Shown here: in pieces, positions 23,194 through 31,854 of the stretch | Layout of the letters: the number at the start of each line of letters is the position of its first letter | How positions within the stretch are numbered: position 1 is the first letter of the stretch | Assembly: GCA_017887425.1 (NCBI GenBank) | Contig: JAGHHZ010000007.1 | Coordinates: forward strand, 1 to 45,022 | Length of the DNA stretch: 45,022 bases | DNA from: Bacilli bacterium | GTDB lineage: Bacteria; Bacillota_I; Bacilli_A; RF39; UBA660 | Direction: 5' to 3' | Program-made: the position numbers and the translations under genes | Notes under the pieces: model-generated | What the model saw: only the letters and a program-made list of their open reading frames with translations | What the model was told of the DNA's origin: nothing | Database searches by the model: none

Positions 23194-23222
23194 TAAAAAA
23201 ATGTCTTTTTGTGACATTTTTT
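23194..23222 (-). terminator. Terminator of the RiPP-type operon
   Basis: AAAAATGTC / GACATTTTT (23213-23221 with 23197-23205) with a 7-nt loop and a T-run on the minus strand. It lies about 90 nt past the S66 peptidase gene and upstream of dacA. Confidence 0.7.
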
Positions 23223-23308: not shown

Positions 23309-24259
23309 CTAACTTTTAATTAATATTTTATTTTCTTCATATGTATCTATAATACAATAGCCACCAATAGGTATAGTAGCATTTGGCGTTGTGTGACCAA
23401 AATTCACATTTATAATAATTGGTATATTTTTTAATTCTTTTTTATTTAATATCTTTTTCCATTTTGTTAAGTTCATTCCAGTTTGAGTTTGACTTCTTCC
23501 AATTATTAATCCTCTTACTTTATCAAAATCTTTTTGTTGAATTAAAGAAACTAAATTTCTATCAAATTCATAAGGAAATTCTTTACCAACAAGAGCATCA
23601 TCTTCAATGAATAATATTTTATCTTTTAAACTCGGCATATAAGTTGTACCTTGTAATAAATTAAAGCTACAAAGATTACCTCCTATGATTATACCTTCTG
23701 CCTTACCATTATTTATTACAATACTTCCCTTATTTTTTATAAACTTTCTCTTTTCTTGATTATCATACCATTTATCACTACTATAATAATCAGGATCATA
23801 CAAATAATATTGTTCATGGTTAATAGCTTTTTTGAAATAATCAATTGTTTGTTCTAACCCTTTTTTCATAGCAAAACTGTGAAATGTTGGACCTAAATAT
23901 GTAGTAATGCCAGTTTTTGCATATATCGCATTTAAAATTACAGTAATATCAGAATACCCACATATTATTTTAGGATTATTTTTAATTAAATCATAATCAA
24001 TATAATCCAATAATTGATTACTATTATAGCCACCCAATACTGATAATATAATATCAATATTTTTATTTTTTATAGCATCGTGAAAATCTGTTATACGTTT
24101 TTTGATACTTGATGAAATGAATGAATCTGTAAAACTTGAATTTTTGGAAAACTCAACATTAAACTCAAGTTGTTCCAATTTACTTTTGGCTAGTTTAATG
24201 TTTTCATCACAAATCATACCTAAACTTCTAGACAAAGCACATACCATTATATTTTTCAT
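23309..24259 (-). CDS. S66 family LD-carboxypeptidase / MccF-like protein
   Basis: 316-aa serine peptidase of clan S66. The nucleophile Ser103 lies in ICGYSD, the acidic triad member is in LFIEDD (about Glu219) and the His is in NFGHTTPN (His289). It also has the Asn-rich loop SVLGGYNSNQLLDY. The family contains cytosolic muramoyltetrapeptide LD-carboxypeptidases and MccF, which gives immunity to microcin C by cleaving its aminoacyl-nucleotide bond. As last gene of an operon with a RiPP precursor and a ribosomal protection protein, an immunity role is attractive, but wall recycling cannot be excluded because the alanine racemase gene is next to it. Good ribosome binding site (AGGAAA). Confidence 0.86.
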   Translation of the reverse strand: MKNIMVCALSRSLGMICDENIKLAKSKLEQLEFNVEFSKNSSFTDSFISSSIKKRITDFHDAIKNKNIDIILSVLGGYNSNQLLDYIDYDLIKNNPKIICGYSDITVILNAIYAKTGITTYLGPTFHSFAMKKGLEQTIDYFKKAINHEQYYLYDPDYYSSDKWYDNQEKRKFIKNKGSIVINNGKAEGIIIGGNLCSFNLLQGTTYMPSLKDKILFIEDDALVGKEFPYEFDRNLVSLIQQKDFDKVRGLIIGRSQTQTGMNLTKWKKILNKKELKNIPIIINVNFGHTTPNATIPIGGYCIIDTYEENKILIKS

Positions 24260-24268
24260 ATTTTTTTC

Positions 24269-25339
24269 CTATCTTTTCAATACTCGTGGAACTCTTTCGG
24301 ATATTGATGTCATCACTTCATAATTACATATATCATTACACCAAATTCCAAGTTGTTCGATGGTTAATTTGTCATTATCCCAAATAAATACCTCTTGTCC
24401 CACTTTTACATCAGGTATATCTGTAATATCTATCATCATATTATCCATGCAAATACCAATAATTTTAGCTTTACTAGATCCAACAATAACATATGGTTCA
24501 CCAGTCTCTAATGTTAAAAGCCCATCACCAAAGCCAAAGGGAATTGTTGCAACAATGGTTTTTCTTTCAGCAACAAAGTTTTTATTATATCCAACAGTTT
24601 CTCCTTTTTCAATTGTTTTTAAAAAACTGATATTAGTTTTCAATATAACACTTGGTTTTAACTTCATTTCTTCTTTTAAACTATCATTTGGATAATATCC
24701 ATAAATCAATATTCCTACTCTAACCATATTATGTAAATAATCCCTATAATATTTTAAACCACCACTACTACAAATATGAATATGTTGAGGATATATTCCA
24801 TTATCGTTAAATTTTTTAAGAGCCTGTTCAAATAAATTAATTTGATTTAAAGAAAATTCATTGTCAGAATTTGTAGATAGATGCGTAAATATACCATCTA
24901 TAAAAACATTATTATTTTTTTTCAAACTATCAATATATTTATCAATAGAATTTAATTGTAATCCAGTTCTTCCCATACCGGTTTCAATTTCCGTATGAAT
25001 CATCACTTTGGTGTGATTATCTACGAGATCAAAAATATTAGATCCATTTAATATAAAATCATATTTTTTCGACAATTCAAATTCCTCTTTTGATAATGGA
25101 TATAAGACTAAAATCTTATTTTTATATCCTTTTTTTCGTAATTCTATTGCCTCATCCAAATACGCTACACCAACATATCTAAATTCGTTTAAAATTTCAG
25201 GACAATAATTTAAATGGGTTCCATACGCAAATGCTTTTACAATAGGCATAATATCAATATCTGATCCTAGGTATTTTTTTATTTCGTTGATATTATGCTT
25301 TATATTTTTTAAATTAACTATTAATTGTGTTGATCTCAT
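24269..25339 (-). CDS. alr: Alanine racemase
   Basis: PLP-dependent fold III racemase of 356 aa. The PLP lysine is in IVKAFAYG (canonical VKANAYG, so Lys is kept but the usual Asn/Asp is Phe). The second catalytic Tyr is in TVGYNKNF, CMDNMMIDIT carries the substrate-binding Met, and GYYPN and FGFGDG (canonical GYADG) are also seen. All catalytic residues are present, so it is probably active, but the deviations leave substrate specificity open. The start overlaps the methyltransferase stop (TAATG). It may serve peptidoglycan D-Ala supply, or be a dedicated racemase of the RiPP-type operon. Confidence 0.88.
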   Translation of the reverse strand: MRSTQLIVNLKNIKHNINEIKKYLGSDIDIMPIVKAFAYGTHLNYCPEILNEFRYVGVAYLDEAIELRKKGYKNKILVLYPLSKEEFELSKKYDFILNGSNIFDLVDNHTKVMIHTEIETGMGRTGLQLNSIDKYIDSLKKNNNVFIDGIFTHLSTNSDNEFSLNQINLFEQALKKFNDNGIYPQHIHICSSGGLKYYRDYLHNMVRVGILIYGYYPNDSLKEEMKLKPSVILKTNISFLKTIEKGETVGYNKNFVAERKTIVATIPFGFGDGLLTLETGEPYVIVGSSKAKIIGICMDNMMIDITDIPDVKVGQEVFIWDNDKLTIEQLGIWCNDICNYEVMTSISERVPRVLKR

Positions 25340-26355
25340 TATTTCACCTCAAAGACATAAAACTGAAATATTGCATCACGTTCTTCATCATATCCATTGC
25401 ATATTATTGGGACTAATCCATATTTTTGAAACATTTCTTTTCTAATTAAAACAGGGGTATGTCCAAAGCAAATAATTAACCCATTTTTTTTTACTTTAGT
25501 AACTAGTACTTTAAAAATTTTATAGGCATCTTTTGTACTAACAACTTCAGAATTTAAAAATCTAAGAAACATTAAATCGACAGAATTATTTTTTAATGGT
25601 GAATTAATTGCATTACAACACAAGGACTCATCAACATAATTTTTAGCATATTCTATCATTTCTCTACTTAAATCATGTCCAATAGTATGTGACATTGGAA
25701 AACTTTTTTTATAATCACTTAAAAATTCTCCAGTAGAGCAAGCAGGATCATAAACTATCTTATAATTGTTGTTCATTTTTTTTAAAAAAACTTCTGTAAA
25801 TTTTCTAAAATGAACTTCTCCATAACCTAGATATTCTTTTTTTTCAGGATTAAAGCTCCATCCCTCTTCTGGAGATACTTCTTCTTTTCCTGTATAAAAA
25901 TCTCTATATTTATATGGATAATATATATCTATTTTCCTGTTTTCTTTTATTTCATTAAAAATAAATTTTTTTTCTTCATTATTAAATGGATAATATTCTA
26001 TAGTTATTTTTTTGTTTTTTAAACTTCTTTTTTTCAAAAAACCAAATAACATAGATGCAGTAATCATACTACAATTTATAGCGTTAATTTTATTTTCTAT
26101 TCTTAAAATAGATCTTATTTTTCTACCTACTATAATCTTACCTTTATAGAATTTTAATAAGAAAATATTTTGTGGTAAATTATAATTAAAATCTTCAAAC
26201 TTAATAGTTTTTCTATTAAATATATCATTTAAATTTATCTCATCTATATCCTTAATATCTTTACTATTAAAATAAATATTATTATATATTTCTATTTCTT
26301 TTTTCTCTAATTCATTATAATAATCTAATGGTCTTTTGTTTTTATATGAATGCAT
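25339..26355 (-). CDS. Class I SAM-dependent methyltransferase of the RiPP-type operon
   Basis: 338 aa. The C-terminal half has a class I methyltransferase fold: motif I VYDPACSTGEFLSDY at about residue 200, acidic strand-2 end HDLSREMIEYAK, then NNSVDLMFLRF and KKNGLIICFGHTP. The N-terminal ~190 residues (start PLDYYNELEKKEIEIYNN) form a separate domain that I do not recognise, with the segment YRDFYTGKEE followed by GWSFNPEKKEY. There is no membrane segment. It starts 8 nt after the GTPase gene and overlaps alr by one base, so it belongs to the operon. The substrate could be the modified peptide or another small molecule. Confidence 0.8.
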   Translation of the reverse strand: MHSYKNKRPLDYYNELEKKEIEIYNNIYFNSKDIKDIDEINLNDIFNRKTIKFEDFNYNLPQNIFLLKFYKGKIIVGRKIRSILRIENKINAINCSMITASMLFGFLKKRSLKNKKITIEYYPFNNEEKKFIFNEIKENRKIDIYYPYKYRDFYTGKEEVSPEEGWSFNPEKKEYLGYGEVHFRKFTEVFLKKMNNNYKIVYDPACSTGEFLSDYKKSFPMSHTIGHDLSREMIEYAKNYVDESLCCNAINSPLKNNSVDLMFLRFLNSEVVSTKDAYKIFKVLVTKVKKNGLIICFGHTPVLIRKEMFQKYGLVPIICNGYDEERDAIFQFYVFEVK

Positions 26356-26363
26356 AAAACCAC

Positions 26364-28382
26364 CTACAATTTTTTACCATATTCTTTTTCTTTTTGAATT
26401 CGTGCAAATTTTGAACGACTCTCTTTTTTCTTTTTCATAAGTGTTTCGTCTAAAGAGTCTAAACTTGCTTTCATATCATTTATTACAAATGTCGTTTCAT
26501 TTCTAGGATCAACACCAATATATTCCATTTTTGCATCTTGATTTTTACTTATCTCATATTTTGAAACATAAGATGTATAAGTGCCACGACCACTAGTATT
26601 CATTGATAACTCTAAAGGAAAATTTAACATATTTGCTGATGGTGCTTCACCTTCAATTGTAATTTCACCTCCAAAAGTATTCGCAATTTGATAAGTTCCA
26701 CCTTTTGAAGATATTAGTTTTATAACACTACTTGTGTATTCTTCTGGAAAAGTAATAATATAACTAGAAATAGGTTCAAGTAATTTCATATTTGCTTTTT
26801 TTAAGCATCTAAACAATGCCAAAGGTGTAATTATATTAAAGTGCATTGGATCGCTTCCCATCGAGTCAAATTGACCTCCAATAAGAGCAACTTCCATATC
26901 GGTAAGTTCCCATCCATTTAAACCTTGTTTTGAATAATAATTTATTAATCTTTCTACCTGTCTTTGGTATTTTAAATGTAAAAAATCTGTTGATAATTTA
27001 GAGACATATTTAAATCCACTACCACGTTCTAATGGAGACACTTCTAATTCAATACCAGAAACACAAGTATAACTTGCCTTGGCTGAAACTGTCGATGTTG
27101 GAACCTCTTTATGAATTACAATAGGATTTTCAATATTAGCTTTAATATTAAATCTTTCTTCCAACATTGTTTTTATAATTTGTGCTTGAACTTCACCCAT
27201 TAAACTACAATAAATTGAGTTTGTTCTTTCATTGTATCTTACATTCAAATATGGATCTTCTTCATTTAAAATTTTAAGTGCTCGCATTAGTTCTATAGTA
27301 TCTTTTTTATCAATAGAATTAATTTCCATTGTCAATAATGGCTTTACAAAACTTATATATTTATCTAATCCAATGTTATTTCCTATAATTTGTCCACACT
27401 TTACATCTAATCCACTGACTATAGCAATATCACCACTATATGCTGTATCAACTGGTTTCATTTTCGAACCATCAGAAATCATGATATTTTTAATTTTTTC
27501 AGTTTGATTTTCACCTACATTTATAACATCCCTATTATTAATGCTTCCATTTAAAACTTTAATATATGCATTTTTACCATTTTCGTCAACTCTTATCATA
27601 AAAACATATGCAGACATTTCTTCTTCTAACTTTTTAGATGTTATTGGTAAATATCTTGCAATAGAATCAACTAAATCATTAATACCAACATCTATTAAAG
27701 CACTACCACCTATTATTGGAAAAATCTTATTTTCATGAGTTAAACTAATCATTTTTGAAGCTAACCATTCATCATCAATATTTTTCCCGCTTATATATCT
27801 TTCTAATACTTCGTCATCGACCATTGATAATTCTTCAATAATTTCTGTTATATTTGAAGGAACAATAGAAATATTACCATCATCGTCTTGAAACACATGT
27901 GTCAATGTTAATGTAGGAACTTTTAGATTATTTTGTAATTCAGCTATTACTTTATCATAATCAGCACCTTTTCTATCCATTTTATTAATAAATATAATAA
28001 CTGGTACGTTTTTTTCCTGTAAAGCACGCCATATAGTATAAGTTTGGGCTTCTAACCCCTCAACTCCTGAAATAACTAACACTGCTCCATCTAGAACATT
28101 GATAGCCCTCTCTACTTCAGCTGAGAAATCTACATGCCCTGGTGTATCTATTAACTGTATATTTTTATTGTTTAATTTAAAAGATACTATTGAATCCCTT
28201 ACAGTTATTCCTCTTTCCTGTTCAACTTTCATATTATCGGTAACTGTATTACCAGAATCGACCCTACCAATACTATCAATTACATTTGTATGATAAAGTA
28301 AATGTTCAGTTATAGTTGTCTTACCAGCATTAGCATGCGCAAAAATACCCAATGTTAACACTCTTTCATCTTTTCTATCCAT
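26364..28382 (-). CDS. TetM/TetO-like ribosomal protection GTPase (EF-G paralogue)
   Basis: Translational GTPase of about 672 aa resembling Tet(M)/Tet(O), which remove tetracycline from the ribosome. G1 is GIFAHANAGKTT, switch I QERGITVRDS, G3 LIDTPGHVDF, G4 INKMDRKGAD. The later EF-G-like domains include GEVQAQIIKTMLEE and the C-terminal GRGTY and NFPLELSMNTSG. It is slightly longer than TetM (639 aa), with a basic C-terminal tail. Start GTG 28391 is inside the ribosome binding region; ATG 28382 is used. It sits directly after the radical SAM gene in a RiPP-type operon, which suggests self-protection rather than, or in addition to, acquired tetracycline resistance. Confidence 0.87.
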   Translation of the reverse strand: MDRKDERVLTLGIFAHANAGKTTITEHLLYHTNVIDSIGRVDSGNTVTDNMKVEQERGITVRDSIVSFKLNNKNIQLIDTPGHVDFSAEVERAINVLDGAVLVISGVEGLEAQTYTIWRALQEKNVPVIIFINKMDRKGADYDKVIAELQNNLKVPTLTLTHVFQDDDGNISIVPSNITEIIEELSMVDDEVLERYISGKNIDDEWLASKMISLTHENKIFPIIGGSALIDVGINDLVDSIARYLPITSKKLEEEMSAYVFMIRVDENGKNAYIKVLNGSINNRDVINVGENQTEKIKNIMISDGSKMKPVDTAYSGDIAIVSGLDVKCGQIIGNNIGLDKYISFVKPLLTMEINSIDKKDTIELMRALKILNEEDPYLNVRYNERTNSIYCSLMGEVQAQIIKTMLEERFNIKANIENPIVIHKEVPTSTVSAKASYTCVSGIELEVSPLERGSGFKYVSKLSTDFLHLKYQRQVERLINYYSKQGLNGWELTDMEVALIGGQFDSMGSDPMHFNIITPLALFRCLKKANMKLLEPISSYIITFPEEYTSSVIKLISSKGGTYQIANTFGGEITIEGEAPSANMLNFPLELSMNTSGRGTYTSYVSKYEISKNQDAKMEYIGVDPRNETTFVINDMKASLDSLDETLMKKKKESRSKFARIQKEKEYGKKL

Positions 28383-28415
28383 TAACAACACCCCACAATA
28401 TATTATAATACTATT

Positions 28416-29771
28416 TTAAAATTTTTTCATTTTTTCTAATATTATTGTCTTGATTAGTTCATCATAATTTACACAACTTGGCCCTTTTATATCCATATTG
28501 TCATCACTCATGTGCTTTGCAGCAGGACATCCTGTTCCACAAATATATCTATATTTACAATCTTTACATTTAGGAATTACTTTAACATTTCTATTAAACC
28601 AAGCGTTGATTTTTTCATCATTTAATTCATATTTTGGATAAAATATTCCAACTCTATAATCATTATTTCCGATTCCATGCCAACATTTATAAACATTCGA
28701 TTTACAATCTAATATAAATTGATTTTTTGCTGCTCCACAATGTCTTAATACAGGTTGATATGGTTCATCATTGAAAATACTTTCTATAAAATTTTCTGGA
28801 TGAAATTTTTTTCTAAAAATAGCCATATTAGGATTTTGTTCTTCCAATTCAAATATTTTTTCGATTCCTATTTTTTCATTTACAATATTTTGTTCTCCAG
28901 AACATCCACCATCTTGTAATAAGTATAAATAAGGTTTTAACTTTTCACTATTATTGAATTCCTTAACTAATACATTTGCTAAATCAGGTAATTCATTTAT
29001 ATTAGTGTCATCAACATTAACCCTTAAAATTATTAAAATATTATTTTTAATGGCTAATTTAATATTTTCCATAATTAAATCAAAACTGCCTCTACCATCA
29101 TGAAATATTCTTCTTTTATCATGAATTTCTTTGACACCATCAACAGTTATTTGTATGTGATCAAGAGTATTTTTATATTTATTAAATAAATCAATATAAT
29201 AGTTTAAATCAACACCATTAGATACAATATCTATTGTATAATTTCTTTTTTTAGCTTGTTCAAAAATATATTCAACTGTTTTTAAGTTGCATTTTAAAAG
29301 TGGTTCTCCACCCATAATCGTTATTCTAATATCATCATTTGTCCTACCATAATTATCTTCGTATACTTTCATTATCTTATCAATTTTATCAAATTGTATA
29401 TCAACCATTTTAATAGAATCTATATTGGTAGTTCCTTTTATCATATACGTTTGTTCATAACAGTAAATACAATGCAAATTACAAGCATAACTAGGCACAA
29501 CTAAAAAATTAGGAGTAGCTCTTTTTTCTAACATTTCTATTCTGTTATCTAATTTTTCTAAAAATCCATCATATTCTTTTTTGCTATTAAACAAATATCT
29601 TCTTTCTAACATACAACTTAATATTTCGTCATCTATCTCATTAAAACGATTGTTAATTATTAAATTATATACATTTCTTTCAATTATATCTGTAGCGCCA
29701 TTAATCAAATTAATCATAATAACTTCATTTTCATTATAATCAATAAATTCTATTTCTTTAATTAAAAACAT
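28416..29771 (-). CDS. Radical SAM/SPASM peptide maturase
   Basis: 451 aa. The radical SAM cluster motif is CNLHCIYCYE (Cys97, 101, 104), with GGEP at 154-157. The C-terminal SPASM domain contains CX2CX5CX3C (Cys402, 405, 411, 415) followed by Cys433, and upstream Cys345, 356 and 363, enough to hold two auxiliary 4Fe-4S clusters. The first ~85 residues may be the peptide-binding (RRE-like) region. SPASM enzymes next to tiny precursor genes install thioether or C-C crosslinks in RiPPs. Here the precursor gene is 84 nt upstream, beyond two hairpins, and the enzyme has its own good binding site (AGAGGTG). The type of crosslink cannot be predicted. Confidence 0.92.
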   Translation of the reverse strand: MFLIKEIEFIDYNENEVIMINLINGATDIIERNVYNLIINNRFNEIDDEILSCMLERRYLFNSKKEYDGFLEKLDNRIEMLEKRATPNFLVVPSYACNLHCIYCYEQTYMIKGTTNIDSIKMVDIQFDKIDKIMKVYEDNYGRTNDDIRITIMGGEPLLKCNLKTVEYIFEQAKKRNYTIDIVSNGVDLNYYIDLFNKYKNTLDHIQITVDGVKEIHDKRRIFHDGRGSFDLIMENIKLAIKNNILIILRVNVDDTNINELPDLANVLVKEFNNSEKLKPYLYLLQDGGCSGEQNIVNEKIGIEKIFELEEQNPNMAIFRKKFHPENFIESIFNDEPYQPVLRHCGAAKNQFILDCKSNVYKCWHGIGNNDYRVGIFYPKYELNDEKINAWFNRNVKVIPKCKDCKYRYICGTGCPAAKHMSDDNMDIKGPSCVNYDELIKTIILEKMKKF

Positions 29772-29807
29772 AAAAACACCTCTTTAATTATTTTAACATA
29801 AGGAATA

Positions 29808-29833
29808 TAAGGGAGAAAATGCAATCTCCCTTA
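29808..29833 (-). repeat. Intergenic hairpin between precursor and maturase genes
   Basis: Perfect 9-bp stem TAAGGGAGA / TCTCCCTTA with an 8-nt loop but no T-tract. It may act as an RNA-stability or partial-termination element giving more precursor than enzyme mRNA. Confidence 0.55.
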
Positions 29834-29843
29834 TACAGAGTTT

Positions 29844-29861
29844 ATCTAATTAAAATTAGAT
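29844..29861 (-). repeat. AT-rich hairpin overlapping the precursor stop codon
   Basis: ATCTAAT-TAAA-ATTAGAT inverted repeat directly at the end of the precursor ORF. It has no T-run, so it is not a standard terminator. Confidence 0.45.
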
Positions 29862-29936
29862 GTGGTAATGACAAGATGCATTACTTGTTGTTACATTTTC
29901 AGCTTTAACAACAACTTTCTTATTTATAGATTTCAT
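29856..29936 (-). CDS. RiPP precursor peptide (26 aa)
   Basis: Small ORF missed by length cut-offs. ATG 29936 is preceded by the ideal ribosome binding site AGGAGGG at 6-nt spacing. The first half is a basic leader (MKSINKKVVVKAENV) and the C-terminal part is TTSNASCHYHI, ending with a single Cys and a His-Tyr-His cluster. This leader-core layout, the strong ribosome binding site, and the radical SAM/SPASM gene 84 nt downstream fit a RiPP precursor. Cys, Tyr and His in the core are plausible sites of thioether or cyclophane crosslinking, which is inference. I recognise no named precursor family. No protease or exporter gene is adjacent in this window. Confidence 0.8.
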   Translation of the reverse strand: MKSINKKVVVKAENVTTSNASCHYHI

Positions 29937-30006: not shown

Positions 30007-30027
30007 ATTATAACTATGAGTTATAAT
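30007..30027. promoter_or_regulatory. Palindromic operator candidate for the LysR regulator
   Basis: Perfect 9-bp inverted repeat ATTATAACT-atg-AGTTATAAT midway between the divergent RiPP operon and the lysR gene. It contains T-N11-A spacing as expected for LysR-type regulators. Confidence 0.6.
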
Positions 30028-30121: not shown

Positions 30122-31009
30122 ATGGATATTAACTACGATCTATATAAAATGTTTTATATTGTTGCAAACTGTTCGACGATAACTGAAGCAGCCAAAAAAT
30201 TAAATATTAGTCAACCGGCTGTTACTAAAGCTATTAAGAATTTAGAGTTGCAATTAAATGGGACTCTATTTATAAGAACTAAGACAGGAATAAAGCTTAC
30301 TGAAAATGGAAAAAAATTTTATAATTATATCAGCCCAGCAATAGAACAAATACAAGATGCACCCAATCTGTTTGACAATATAAATAAAATTGAAACTGGT
30401 GAAATTAAAATTGGAACTAGTAACACCGTTTTAAAATATTTCTTAATGCCATATTTAAAAAAATATTCTAGACTATTTCCAAATGTAAATATTTCAATTG
30501 AAGAAAGTTATACCCCGGAATTAATTAACATGGTTAAAAATGGCTCTTTAGATATAGCAATTATATATGCTAATGATGACGATAAAAAGTTAGAAGGATT
30601 AAAAATATTAAAATTACAAATATTAAATTATTGTTTTATTGGTAATAAAAAATATAAAAATTTATCAAATAAAGTTATAAGTTTTAATGAATTAAAAAAT
30701 GAAAGTTTAATCTTAAATACAATAAATCCGATCCAAACATCCCTGTTAAATGATTCAAAATATATTGCACATATAAATTTAGCTAGTCATTCGCTTGTTT
30801 ATGAGTTTGTTAAAGAAGGATTTGGAATAGGACTAGTTATCAAAGAATTTATAAAAGATAAATTAGATGATAAAAATTTATATGAAATTAAAATTAAAGA
30901 GGATTTTCAACCATTAAATTTAATATTAGTTATTAACAAAAATAGTTTTCCAACATATGCAACATCACAATTAATAAATATTATTAAAAATAAGGAGGAT
31001 GAGAAATGA
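30122..31009 (+). CDS. LysR family transcriptional regulator
   Basis: 295 aa with an N-terminal winged helix-turn-helix (YDLYKMFYIVANCSTITEAAK then LNISQPAVTKAIKNLE, with the typical GTLFIRTKTGIKLTENG wing) and a C-terminal periplasmic-binding-like effector domain (GEIKIGTSNTVLKYFLMPYL and later GFGIGLVIKEFI). Regulators of this family usually control a divergent operon, here the RiPP operon, through a palindrome such as the one at 30007-30027. The ribosome binding site is GAGGTGG. The start overlaps nothing upstream, and the stop overlaps the ATP-grasp start (ATGA). Confidence 0.93.
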   Translation: MDINYDLYKMFYIVANCSTITEAAKKLNISQPAVTKAIKNLELQLNGTLFIRTKTGIKLTENGKKFYNYISPAIEQIQDAPNLFDNINKIETGEIKIGTSNTVLKYFLMPYLKKYSRLFPNVNISIEESYTPELINMVKNGSLDIAIIYANDDDKKLEGLKILKLQILNYCFIGNKKYKNLSNKVISFNELKNESLILNTINPIQTSLLNDSKYIAHINLASHSLVYEFVKEGFGIGLVIKEFIKDKLDDKNLYEIKIKEDFQPLNLILVINKNSFPTYATSQLINIIKNKEDEK

Positions 31010-31854
31010 AAATTTTAATTATTACTAATTTAGAAAATGAATGTAGTATAGAAGATGTATGGATTGCAAATTCATTTATAAGTGATGGCCACATTGTTAA
31101 ACTAGTAAATAAATATTATGACAAAAGTTTGGAAGATGAATATGATATATTTATTAAAAGATATTCTTGGATTGAAGATATAAGTGATTTTTCTGTCGGA
31201 GCTGAAGAATCAGACTATGAAACAAGAATATTAAAGAAAGACTTACCACGAATTAATTTTGATGGAAAATTTGATAATCAAGGAAAACATTACCTATCTC
31301 ATTTATATAATTTAGGTTATTCAGTTGTTCCAACCATTAATGATATTTCAAAATTAGATACGCTAGGAAATCATGAAAGGTTTTTAGTTAAGCCAGTTAA
31401 TGGTTACGCTAGTTATGGAATAATCGAGACTGATAAAAATAATATCGAACATTATTGGAATAAAAACTATGTTATACAGCCAAAGTTAAATTTTGATAGT
31501 GAGGTTCAATTTTACTTTATAGGTAATAAATATGAATTTGCACAAATATTTACTCCTAAAAAATTATTATCACATGAAAACGCCGTTTTTTACACGCCAA
31601 ATAAAGAAGAGATAGAATTAGCTGAATCTTTTGCTAAATTAAACGGTGAAAGTTTTAATGGAGTTCAACGAATAGATTTTTTAAAATTAAATAATCATTT
31701 ATTATTATCAGAATTAGAGGATGATAGTCCATATATGGCAATAGAAGCACTTCCTGACGATAAAAAGCAAGAGTTTATAAATGATTTTAAACAAATGGTA
31801 TATGCATATTACAATAGACTAAACAAAGGAAAAACTAAAGTACTTAAAAAATAA
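31006..31854 (+). CDS. ATP-grasp ligase, RimK-like
   Basis: 282 aa. The ATP-grasp fold is recognisable from FLVKPVNGYASYGI (ATP-binding Lys and glycine loop), VIQPKLNFDSEVQFYFIG and the metal-binding FNGVQRIDFLKLNNHLLLSELEDDSP. Such enzymes join a carboxylate to an amine or thiol through an acyl phosphate, as in RimK, D-Ala-D-Ala ligase and graspetide macrocyclases. It is translationally coupled to lysR and divergent from the RiPP operon, so it could tailor the peptide, attach an amino acid to the product, or be an unrelated ligase. The substrate is not readable. Its stop codon lies inside the following terminator. Confidence 0.8.
   Translation: MKILIITNLENECSIEDVWIANSFISDGHIVKLVNKYYDKSLEDEYDIFIKRYSWIEDISDFSVGAEESDYETRILKKDLPRINFDGKFDNQGKHYLSHLYNLGYSVVPTINDISKLDTLGNHERFLVKPVNGYASYGIIETDKNNIEHYWNKNYVIQPKLNFDSEVQFYFIGNKYEFAQIFTPKKLLSHENAVFYTPNKEEIELAESFAKLNGESFNGVQRIDFLKLNNHLLLSELEDDSPYMAIEALPDDKKQEFINDFKQMVYAYYNRLNKGKTKVLKK

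Follow-up and report, generated by a model that had tools for sequence, protein, structure and literature searches.

In nocardicin biosynthesis, a pyridoxal phosphate (PLP)-dependent enzyme works on a 3-amino-3-carboxypropyl (acp) group, and acp transfer to a phenol is, to our knowledge, known only from nocardicin. NAT, the acp transferase that forms isonocardicin C, is unrelated to MccD, NAS and CntL, and in microcin C a PLP enzyme likewise acts on the acp group (PMC10491745). MccF is the self-immunity peptidase of microcin C (PMC7136475, PMC9239234). Here we analyze a stretch of 45,022 nucleotides (the window) of contig JAGHHZ010000007.1 from a Bacilli bacterium (assembly GCA_017887425.1), in which six genes form a compact cassette. 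A preliminary description of these genes had proposed an undescribed operon for a ribosomally synthesized and post-translationally modified peptide (RiPP), consisting of a tiny precursor, a radical S-adenosylmethionine (SAM)/SPASM enzyme, a TetM-like GTPase, a methyltransferase, an alanine racemase and an S66 peptidase. The RiPP assignment is borne out by the conservation of precursor and gene order, and by a SPASM maturase with CteB as its nearest solved relative; a literature search of incomplete coverage yielded no matching class, leaving “undescribed” to stand within that coverage. The precursor is conserved, the genes travel together, and their products can be placed in families. We give a probability of about 0.5 to the reading that the cassette is a RiPP operon of a new class, in which the precursor would be crosslinked, would receive acp on a tyrosine and would be edited by a racemase-fold enzyme, with protection by the GTPase together with the S66 peptidase.

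Precursor peptide and maturase

The precursor gene is a 26-codon open reading frame (ORF) encoding MKSINKKVVVKAENVTTSNASCHYHI, with the ribosome site GAGAGGAGG ahead of its ATG; outside the larger cassette genes, no other ORF of 12–60 amino acids (aa) has a strong ribosome site. A scan of genome contigs with the maturase returned eight loci (L002–L009, with L006 repeating L005 over their shared stretch), all from metagenome-assembled genomes named uncultured Bacilli, Tenericutes or Erysipelotrichaceae, or Candidatus Pelethosoma, and the ORF lies 60–90 nt upstream of the maturase gene in every locus recovered. Including the window, eight distinct precursors are available. Residues 18–25 (SNASCHYH) are identical in all of them, the final residue is I or V, and the differences are confined to the leader, with a ratio of nonsynonymous to synonymous divergence (pN/pS) of 0.23 over the whole ORF and a pN of 0 in the core. 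The 26-aa ORF is real, more than a chance reading frame, and in all loci an encoded precursor stands beside modifying enzymes and is conserved together with them, the arrangement that marks a RiPP. Genome mining for short ORFs beside homologous maturases, suggested in the preliminary description, thus found the ORF conserved in all relatives recovered, and the good ribosome site described there and the conserved C-terminus named there as support were both recovered.

The maturase carries the radical SAM motif CxxxCxxC (C97/C101/C104) and the SPASM cysteines C345, C363, C402, C405, C411, C415 and C433, all of them invariant in eight copies, and it scores above the cut-offs of Pfam Radical_SAM and TIGR04085, in agreement with its initial label. 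CteB (5wgg) is the closest solved protein both by sequence and by predicted fold. The closest named family is CefB, at 138.8 bits against a curated cut-off of 600; scores for Clo7bot (109.9 of 600), PapB (107.8 of 340) and SCIFF (71.1 of 425) likewise stay below the cut-off. AlphaFold models were built from 5–8 close relatives and reached low confidence (predicted local distance difference test, pLDDT, 48.7 and 53.8), and only the ranking of their hits was used. In the maturase model (overall pLDDT only 53.8), residues 1–84, where a leader-recognition domain resembling a RiPP recognition element was sought, are predicted to form three strands and three helices.

Two more distant loci touch on this enzyme. 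On a small, mobilizable Muribaculaceae plasmid (CP061010.1, L039:5932-7473), the gene for a relative with 29.5% identity has directly behind it a 47-aa ORF that contains Cys and ends in STECFTCTLCFTCGEFL. This ORF is likely a RiPP precursor, and the pairing would fit maturases of this branch acting on peptides. A 28%-identical radical SAM/SPASM protein in genome G659 (L038:2628-6141) lies beside genes resembling those for an AMP-binding enzyme and a carrier protein; it was rejected as an orthologous cassette, being one weak maturase match in the context of another cluster type.

Between the precursor and maturase genes, 8 of 11 hand-aligned stem pairs of a hairpin are altered on both sides across the eight copies with pairing retained, which suits a partial terminator or an mRNA-stability element that would favour precursor over enzyme. 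A short ORF and a hairpin ahead of an operon with a gene akin to those for ribosomal protection proteins (RPPs) could also be taken for a regulatory leader peptide acting by attenuation, as before some tetracycline and macrolide resistance genes, the operon then serving resistance or metabolism. Synonymous sites in the ORF are indeed unusually conserved (pS 0.26 versus at least 0.38 in any maturase window of equal length), and the rare codon TAC encodes Tyr24 in 8/8 copies. We nevertheless regard a leader peptide as decidedly improbable. It is the protein sequence itself that is conserved, down to an unchanging core; the hairpin lies 3′ of the stop codon and is maintained by compensatory change; and the next gene encodes a SPASM maturase, which requires a peptide, with no other candidate substrate found in the cassette. 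RNA structure inside the ORF found no support, its folding being no better than that of synonymous shuffles, and Rfam gave nothing above threshold.

Tailoring enzymes and the RPP-like GTPase

The protein labelled “METHYLTRANSFERASE” is most likely a NAT-like, SAM-dependent acp transferase. A profile of five cassette copies searched against the PDB matches isonocardicin synthase (8zhu) with an E-value of 1.3e-39 over residues 52–335, the next match standing at 0.056, and a single sequence reaches 4.5e-35. Foldseek with a poor model ranks four NAT chains on top (3e-12 to 2e-11), followed by a match at 7e-6. The enzyme thereby resembles NAT near full length and better than any other solved SAM-dependent enzyme, and the two share the signatures ACSTG, GHTPVL and LN..VV within about 280 homologous residues. 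The gene of the preliminary description is present, but its designation as a methyltransferase is wrong in detail. Tyr24 is the proposed acp acceptor because the precursor has no other phenol; this choice is a guess, with His as the alternative.

NAT-like genes occur elsewhere too. On a Pantoea eucrina plasmid (NZ_CP083450.1, L040:8372-10588), a 43-aa ORF is followed by genes for YcaO and for a NAT-like enzyme, the latter again closest to NAT, all beside maltose genes. The row resembles a RiPP cluster of its own, unrelated to the cassette, and NAT-like enzymes therefore occur in a second RiPP-like setting. Similar NAT-like genes are found on plasmids of Pantoea PSNIH1 and Acinetobacter venetianus. 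A literature search, incomplete in coverage, for acp transfer in RiPPs or for NAT together with RiPPs or YcaO gave nothing relevant.

The adjoining PLP enzyme belongs to the alanine racemase family, as had been proposed (TIGR00492 cut-off 168 bits), and the catalytic Lys, the Tyr of GYN, the Arg of TGMGR and the MD motif are retained in 7/7 cassette racemases. The substrate entrance is altered in the same seven proteins: the Lys of HxKxDTGM is replaced by E and the Tyr of GYxDG by F, the Arg following GYxDG is missing, and the residue before ICMD is deleted. Numbered as in the Geobacillus enzyme, these positions would be entrance or support residues. Two racemases from this family have R or D directly before ICMD, and the entrance changes are not seen in an ordinary racemase of that family. 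We infer that the cassette racemase takes a different or larger substrate.

A variant of our reading would keep the RiPP, take the NAT-like enzyme for a methyltransferase and assign racemase and S66 peptidase to cell-wall D-Ala metabolism or immunity. It accords with the generic Rossmann fold of the NAT-like enzyme (Pfam Methyltransf_11), with the TIGR00492 score, and with the window's genome (88% complete), where only the cassette racemase was found. Against this, the only solved relative of the NAT-like enzyme below an E-value of 0.05 is an acp transferase, 7/18 genomes of the family lack any alr gene, and two cassette genomes hold a second racemase gene elsewhere; the cassette copy is therefore not the general source of D-Ala, which disfavours a housekeeping role and makes the variant as a whole quite unlikely.

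The S66 peptidase, confirmed in the window, falls on the MccF side of its family, scoring 321 bits with the MccF-like proteins 5usd and 4e5s, 162 and 140 with MccF, and 68 with LdcA. It is not universal among cassettes: the gene is present in the window, L003, L007, L008, L009 and L034, and an M29 peptidase gene occupies its usual place in L035 (8362-9468). L008, L009 and L034 carry an additional small SAM methyltransferase and a MORN-repeat protein, with M29 also in L008 and L009. Being present in some cassettes only, the S66 enzyme may act as an accessory, in immunity or in trimming.

“TetM-like” is right for the GTPase at the family level only. The protein shares 36% identity with TetB(P), 32% with Tet(O) and 30% with EF-G, retains the G motifs and groups beside, not inside, the Tet proteins; its tet_protect score of 528.8 bits falls short of the 775 required. 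The YSPVSTPADF loop in domain IV, with which Tet proteins displace tetracycline, is replaced by FDSMGSDPMHF in cassette copies (six copies, one differing at one position), and a basic extension of about 30 aa is added at the C-terminus. The likely start codon is the ATG at 28382, giving 672 aa as in relatives, with a GTG upstream at 28391. We read the protein as a putative dedicated ribosome-clearing factor, presumably directed against a ligand other than tetracycline.

Transfer of acp could instead serve metal binding, the cassette making a peptide metallophore or a metal-handling cofactor with the GTPase and S66 peptidase incidental or regulatory. The invariant core holds many metal ligands, and its Cys and two His, along with the carboxylate and amine of an added acp, could chelate metal like the acp of nicotianamine and staphylopine. 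The cassette has no toxin exporter, and bacterial metallophores typically involve acp transfer, more NAS-like enzymes having been proposed for others (PMC10491745). We consider a metallophore unlikely: the cassette has no conserved gene for a metal importer, an efflux pump or a metal regulator, the RPP-like GTPase is left without a role, and NAT shares no homology with NAS and CntL, the enzymes that serve in known metallophores (PMC10491745).

Layout, regulatory elements and spread of the cassette

All six genes lie on the minus strand between 23309 and 29936 with at most 84 nt between neighbours, the start of the racemase gene overlapping the end of the NAT-like gene (Table 1), in line with the tight, unidirectional arrangement originally described. 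Both proposed boundaries were likewise recovered. The divergent LysR-type gene adjoins the precursor in every locus of sufficient length, and a terminator-like hairpin with a T run follows the S66 gene; being too AT-rich for the hairpin scan, it was read by eye from the sequence. An inverted repeat shaped like a LysR-type site, a probable operator, is present in 8/8 copies, one of them reduced to GTTAT only, and a TATAAT-like box together with GAGAGGAGG precedes the precursor ATG in all eight.

Table 1. Features of the cassette and its flanks; positions refer to the window unless a locus is given
Feature	Position	Strand	Remarks
Terminator-like hairpin and T run 3′ of the S66 gene	about 23194..23219	-	AAATGTC-N7-GACATTT, then TTTTT
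S66 peptidase, MccF side of family, 316 aa	23309..24259	-	PDB relatives 5usd/4e5s
Alanine-racemase-family PLP enzyme, 356 aa	24269..25339	-	TIGR00492 259.8 bits
NAT-like acp transferase (most likely), 338 aa	25339..26355	-	Homology to isonocardicin synthase 8zhu
EF-G/ribosomal-protection-like GTPase, 672 aa from ATG	26364..28382	-	Sister branch of Tet RPPs
Radical SAM/SPASM peptide maturase, 451 aa	28416..29771	-	Pfam Radical_SAM and TIGR04085 above cut-off
Hairpin between precursor and maturase	29805..29836	-	12-bp stem, GC-capped, kept in all eight copies
Precursor peptide, 26 aa	29856..29936	-	Conserved 5′ of maturase in every relative; core SNASCHYH(I/V); Shine-Dalgarno GAGAGGAGG
Probable LysR operator, inverted repeat ATAACT-N3-AGTTAT	30010..30024	.	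87–89 nt before precursor ATG in 7/8 copies, 81 in L007
Divergent LysR-type regulator	30122..31009	+	Pfam HTH_1 and LysR_substrate
Optional cassette genes (M29 aminopeptidase, second methyltransferase, MORN-repeat protein)	L008:12603-14830; L009:16507-18771; L034:3214-4312

By tblastn with the window proteins, the order LysR, precursor, maturase, RPP-like GTPase, NAT-like enzyme, racemase is the same wherever the contig is long enough, a conservation that the preliminary description had named as support, and the neighbouring genes outside the cassette vary from locus to locus. The cassette genes therefore form one unit. Of 386 genomes sampled from the family, six, in six genera, have the maturase, and in the genus of the window four sampled genomes lack it. 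Between genomes G441 and G021, the cassette GTPases share 79.4% identity and the EF-G proteins 68.7%, which points to horizontal transfer, and the cassette may be a self-contained unit that moves in this way. Searches at phylum and class level with the NAT-like and maturase profiles retrieved no orthologous cassette outside the family, and viral contigs gave zero matches to the maturase, the NAT-like protein or the core codons. A defence system was rejected, the PADLOC matches being generic.

A tiny precursor, a fixed C-terminal core with Tyr and a SPASM maturase are also the pattern of PqqA and MftA, and the cassette might on that account make a redox or catalytic cofactor like PQQ or mycofactocin, with no other cells targeted. 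The sporadic distribution and horizontal movement, however, fit a dispensable natural product better, no oxidoreductase partner is conserved in the cassette loci, and the RPP-like GTPase would go unexplained. We regard a cofactor as very improbable and the least favoured of the alternatives.

Beyond the regulator, a gene at 31006-31854 overlaps the end of the LysR gene and is conserved in five cassette loci. Its 282-aa product has no Pfam, NCBIfam or PDB match and, judged by eye, is perhaps an ATP-grasp-like ligase.

Proposed pathway and comparison with known systems

From these family placements, we propose substrates for the enzymes, an order of steps, the ribosome as target and a protective GTPase. 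The maturase, via a putative N-terminal leader-binding domain, would make one crosslink in SNASCHYH (-2 Da), either a thioether from Cys22 or a C-C or C-O link at Tyr or His. The NAT-like enzyme would then attach SAM-derived acp to the Tyr24 phenol (+101 Da), the counterpart of the NAT reaction on the phenol of the hydroxyphenylglycine in nocardicin, and the racemase-fold enzyme would act on the amino-acid head of the acp group, most likely converting L to D. Peptidases (S66, M29 in some copies, or host enzymes) would trim or inactivate the product. Finally, the product would bind the ribosome and the RPP-like GTPase would dislodge it from the producer's own ribosomes. That the class in its full form, with radical SAM crosslink, acp on the core Tyr and an epimerised side chain, yields a ribosome-binding antibiotic with GTPase self-protection is a tentative proposal, which we rate as doubtful.

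Several points weigh against the RiPP class proposed here. The chemistry is deduced throughout from homology, and the confidence of both AlphaFold models is low. The substrate of NAT is a small molecule, which makes the acceptor here, whether Tyr, His or another group, a guess, and plain methyl transfer may be compatible with NAT homology alone. The racemase passes the NCBI alanine racemase cut-off and so may simply make D-Ala. A transporter would be expected for an antibiotic, yet none is conserved in the cassette, and a signal, a metallophore or a cofactor would account for the fixed core just as well. The known carriers all come from a single family of uncultured gut Bacilli.

If the proposal is true, acp transfer to a phenol enters ribosomal peptide chemistry, and a NAT-like gene beside a tiny ORF provides a sequence handle for finding more clusters. 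A self-protection GTPase would predict the ribosome as target before the compound is isolated, and a natural relative of the tetracycline protection proteins, matched to another ligand, would bear on the origins of these resistance proteins.

Judged by its gene content, the cassette is neither a microcin C locus nor a tetracycline resistance locus, nor does its maturase belong to a named family. With the NAT system (8zhu, 8zhv) it shares a homologous SAM enzyme and an available phenolic acceptor, and a PLP enzyme follows, as NocJ does in nocardicin; NAT, however, acts on a nonribosomal beta-lactam, whereas the cassette enzyme would presumably act on a ribosomal peptide, and the cassette PLP enzyme, unlike NocJ, is of the alanine racemase family. 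Microcin C (MccA–MccF) likewise combines a tiny precursor, acp transfer, a PLP enzyme and an S66 self-immunity peptidase, but MccD is not homologous to NAT, the MccB adenylyltransferase, the MccC exporter and an MccA-type heptapeptide are missing from the cassette, and the cassette adds a radical SAM maturase and an RPP-like GTPase. The ranthipeptide and sactipeptide maturases (CteB, CefB, Clo7bot, PapB) have the same SPASM radical SAM layout and act on cores with Cys, whereas the cassette enzyme scores at most 139 bits against cut-offs of 340–600 and its precursor is much shorter, with one Cys. The RPPs TetB(P), Tet(O), Tet(M), Tet(Q) and Tet(36), finally, share the GTPase fold, the domain layout and 31–36% identity with the cassette GTPase, a sister clade that is set apart by its own domain-IV loop and its basic tail.

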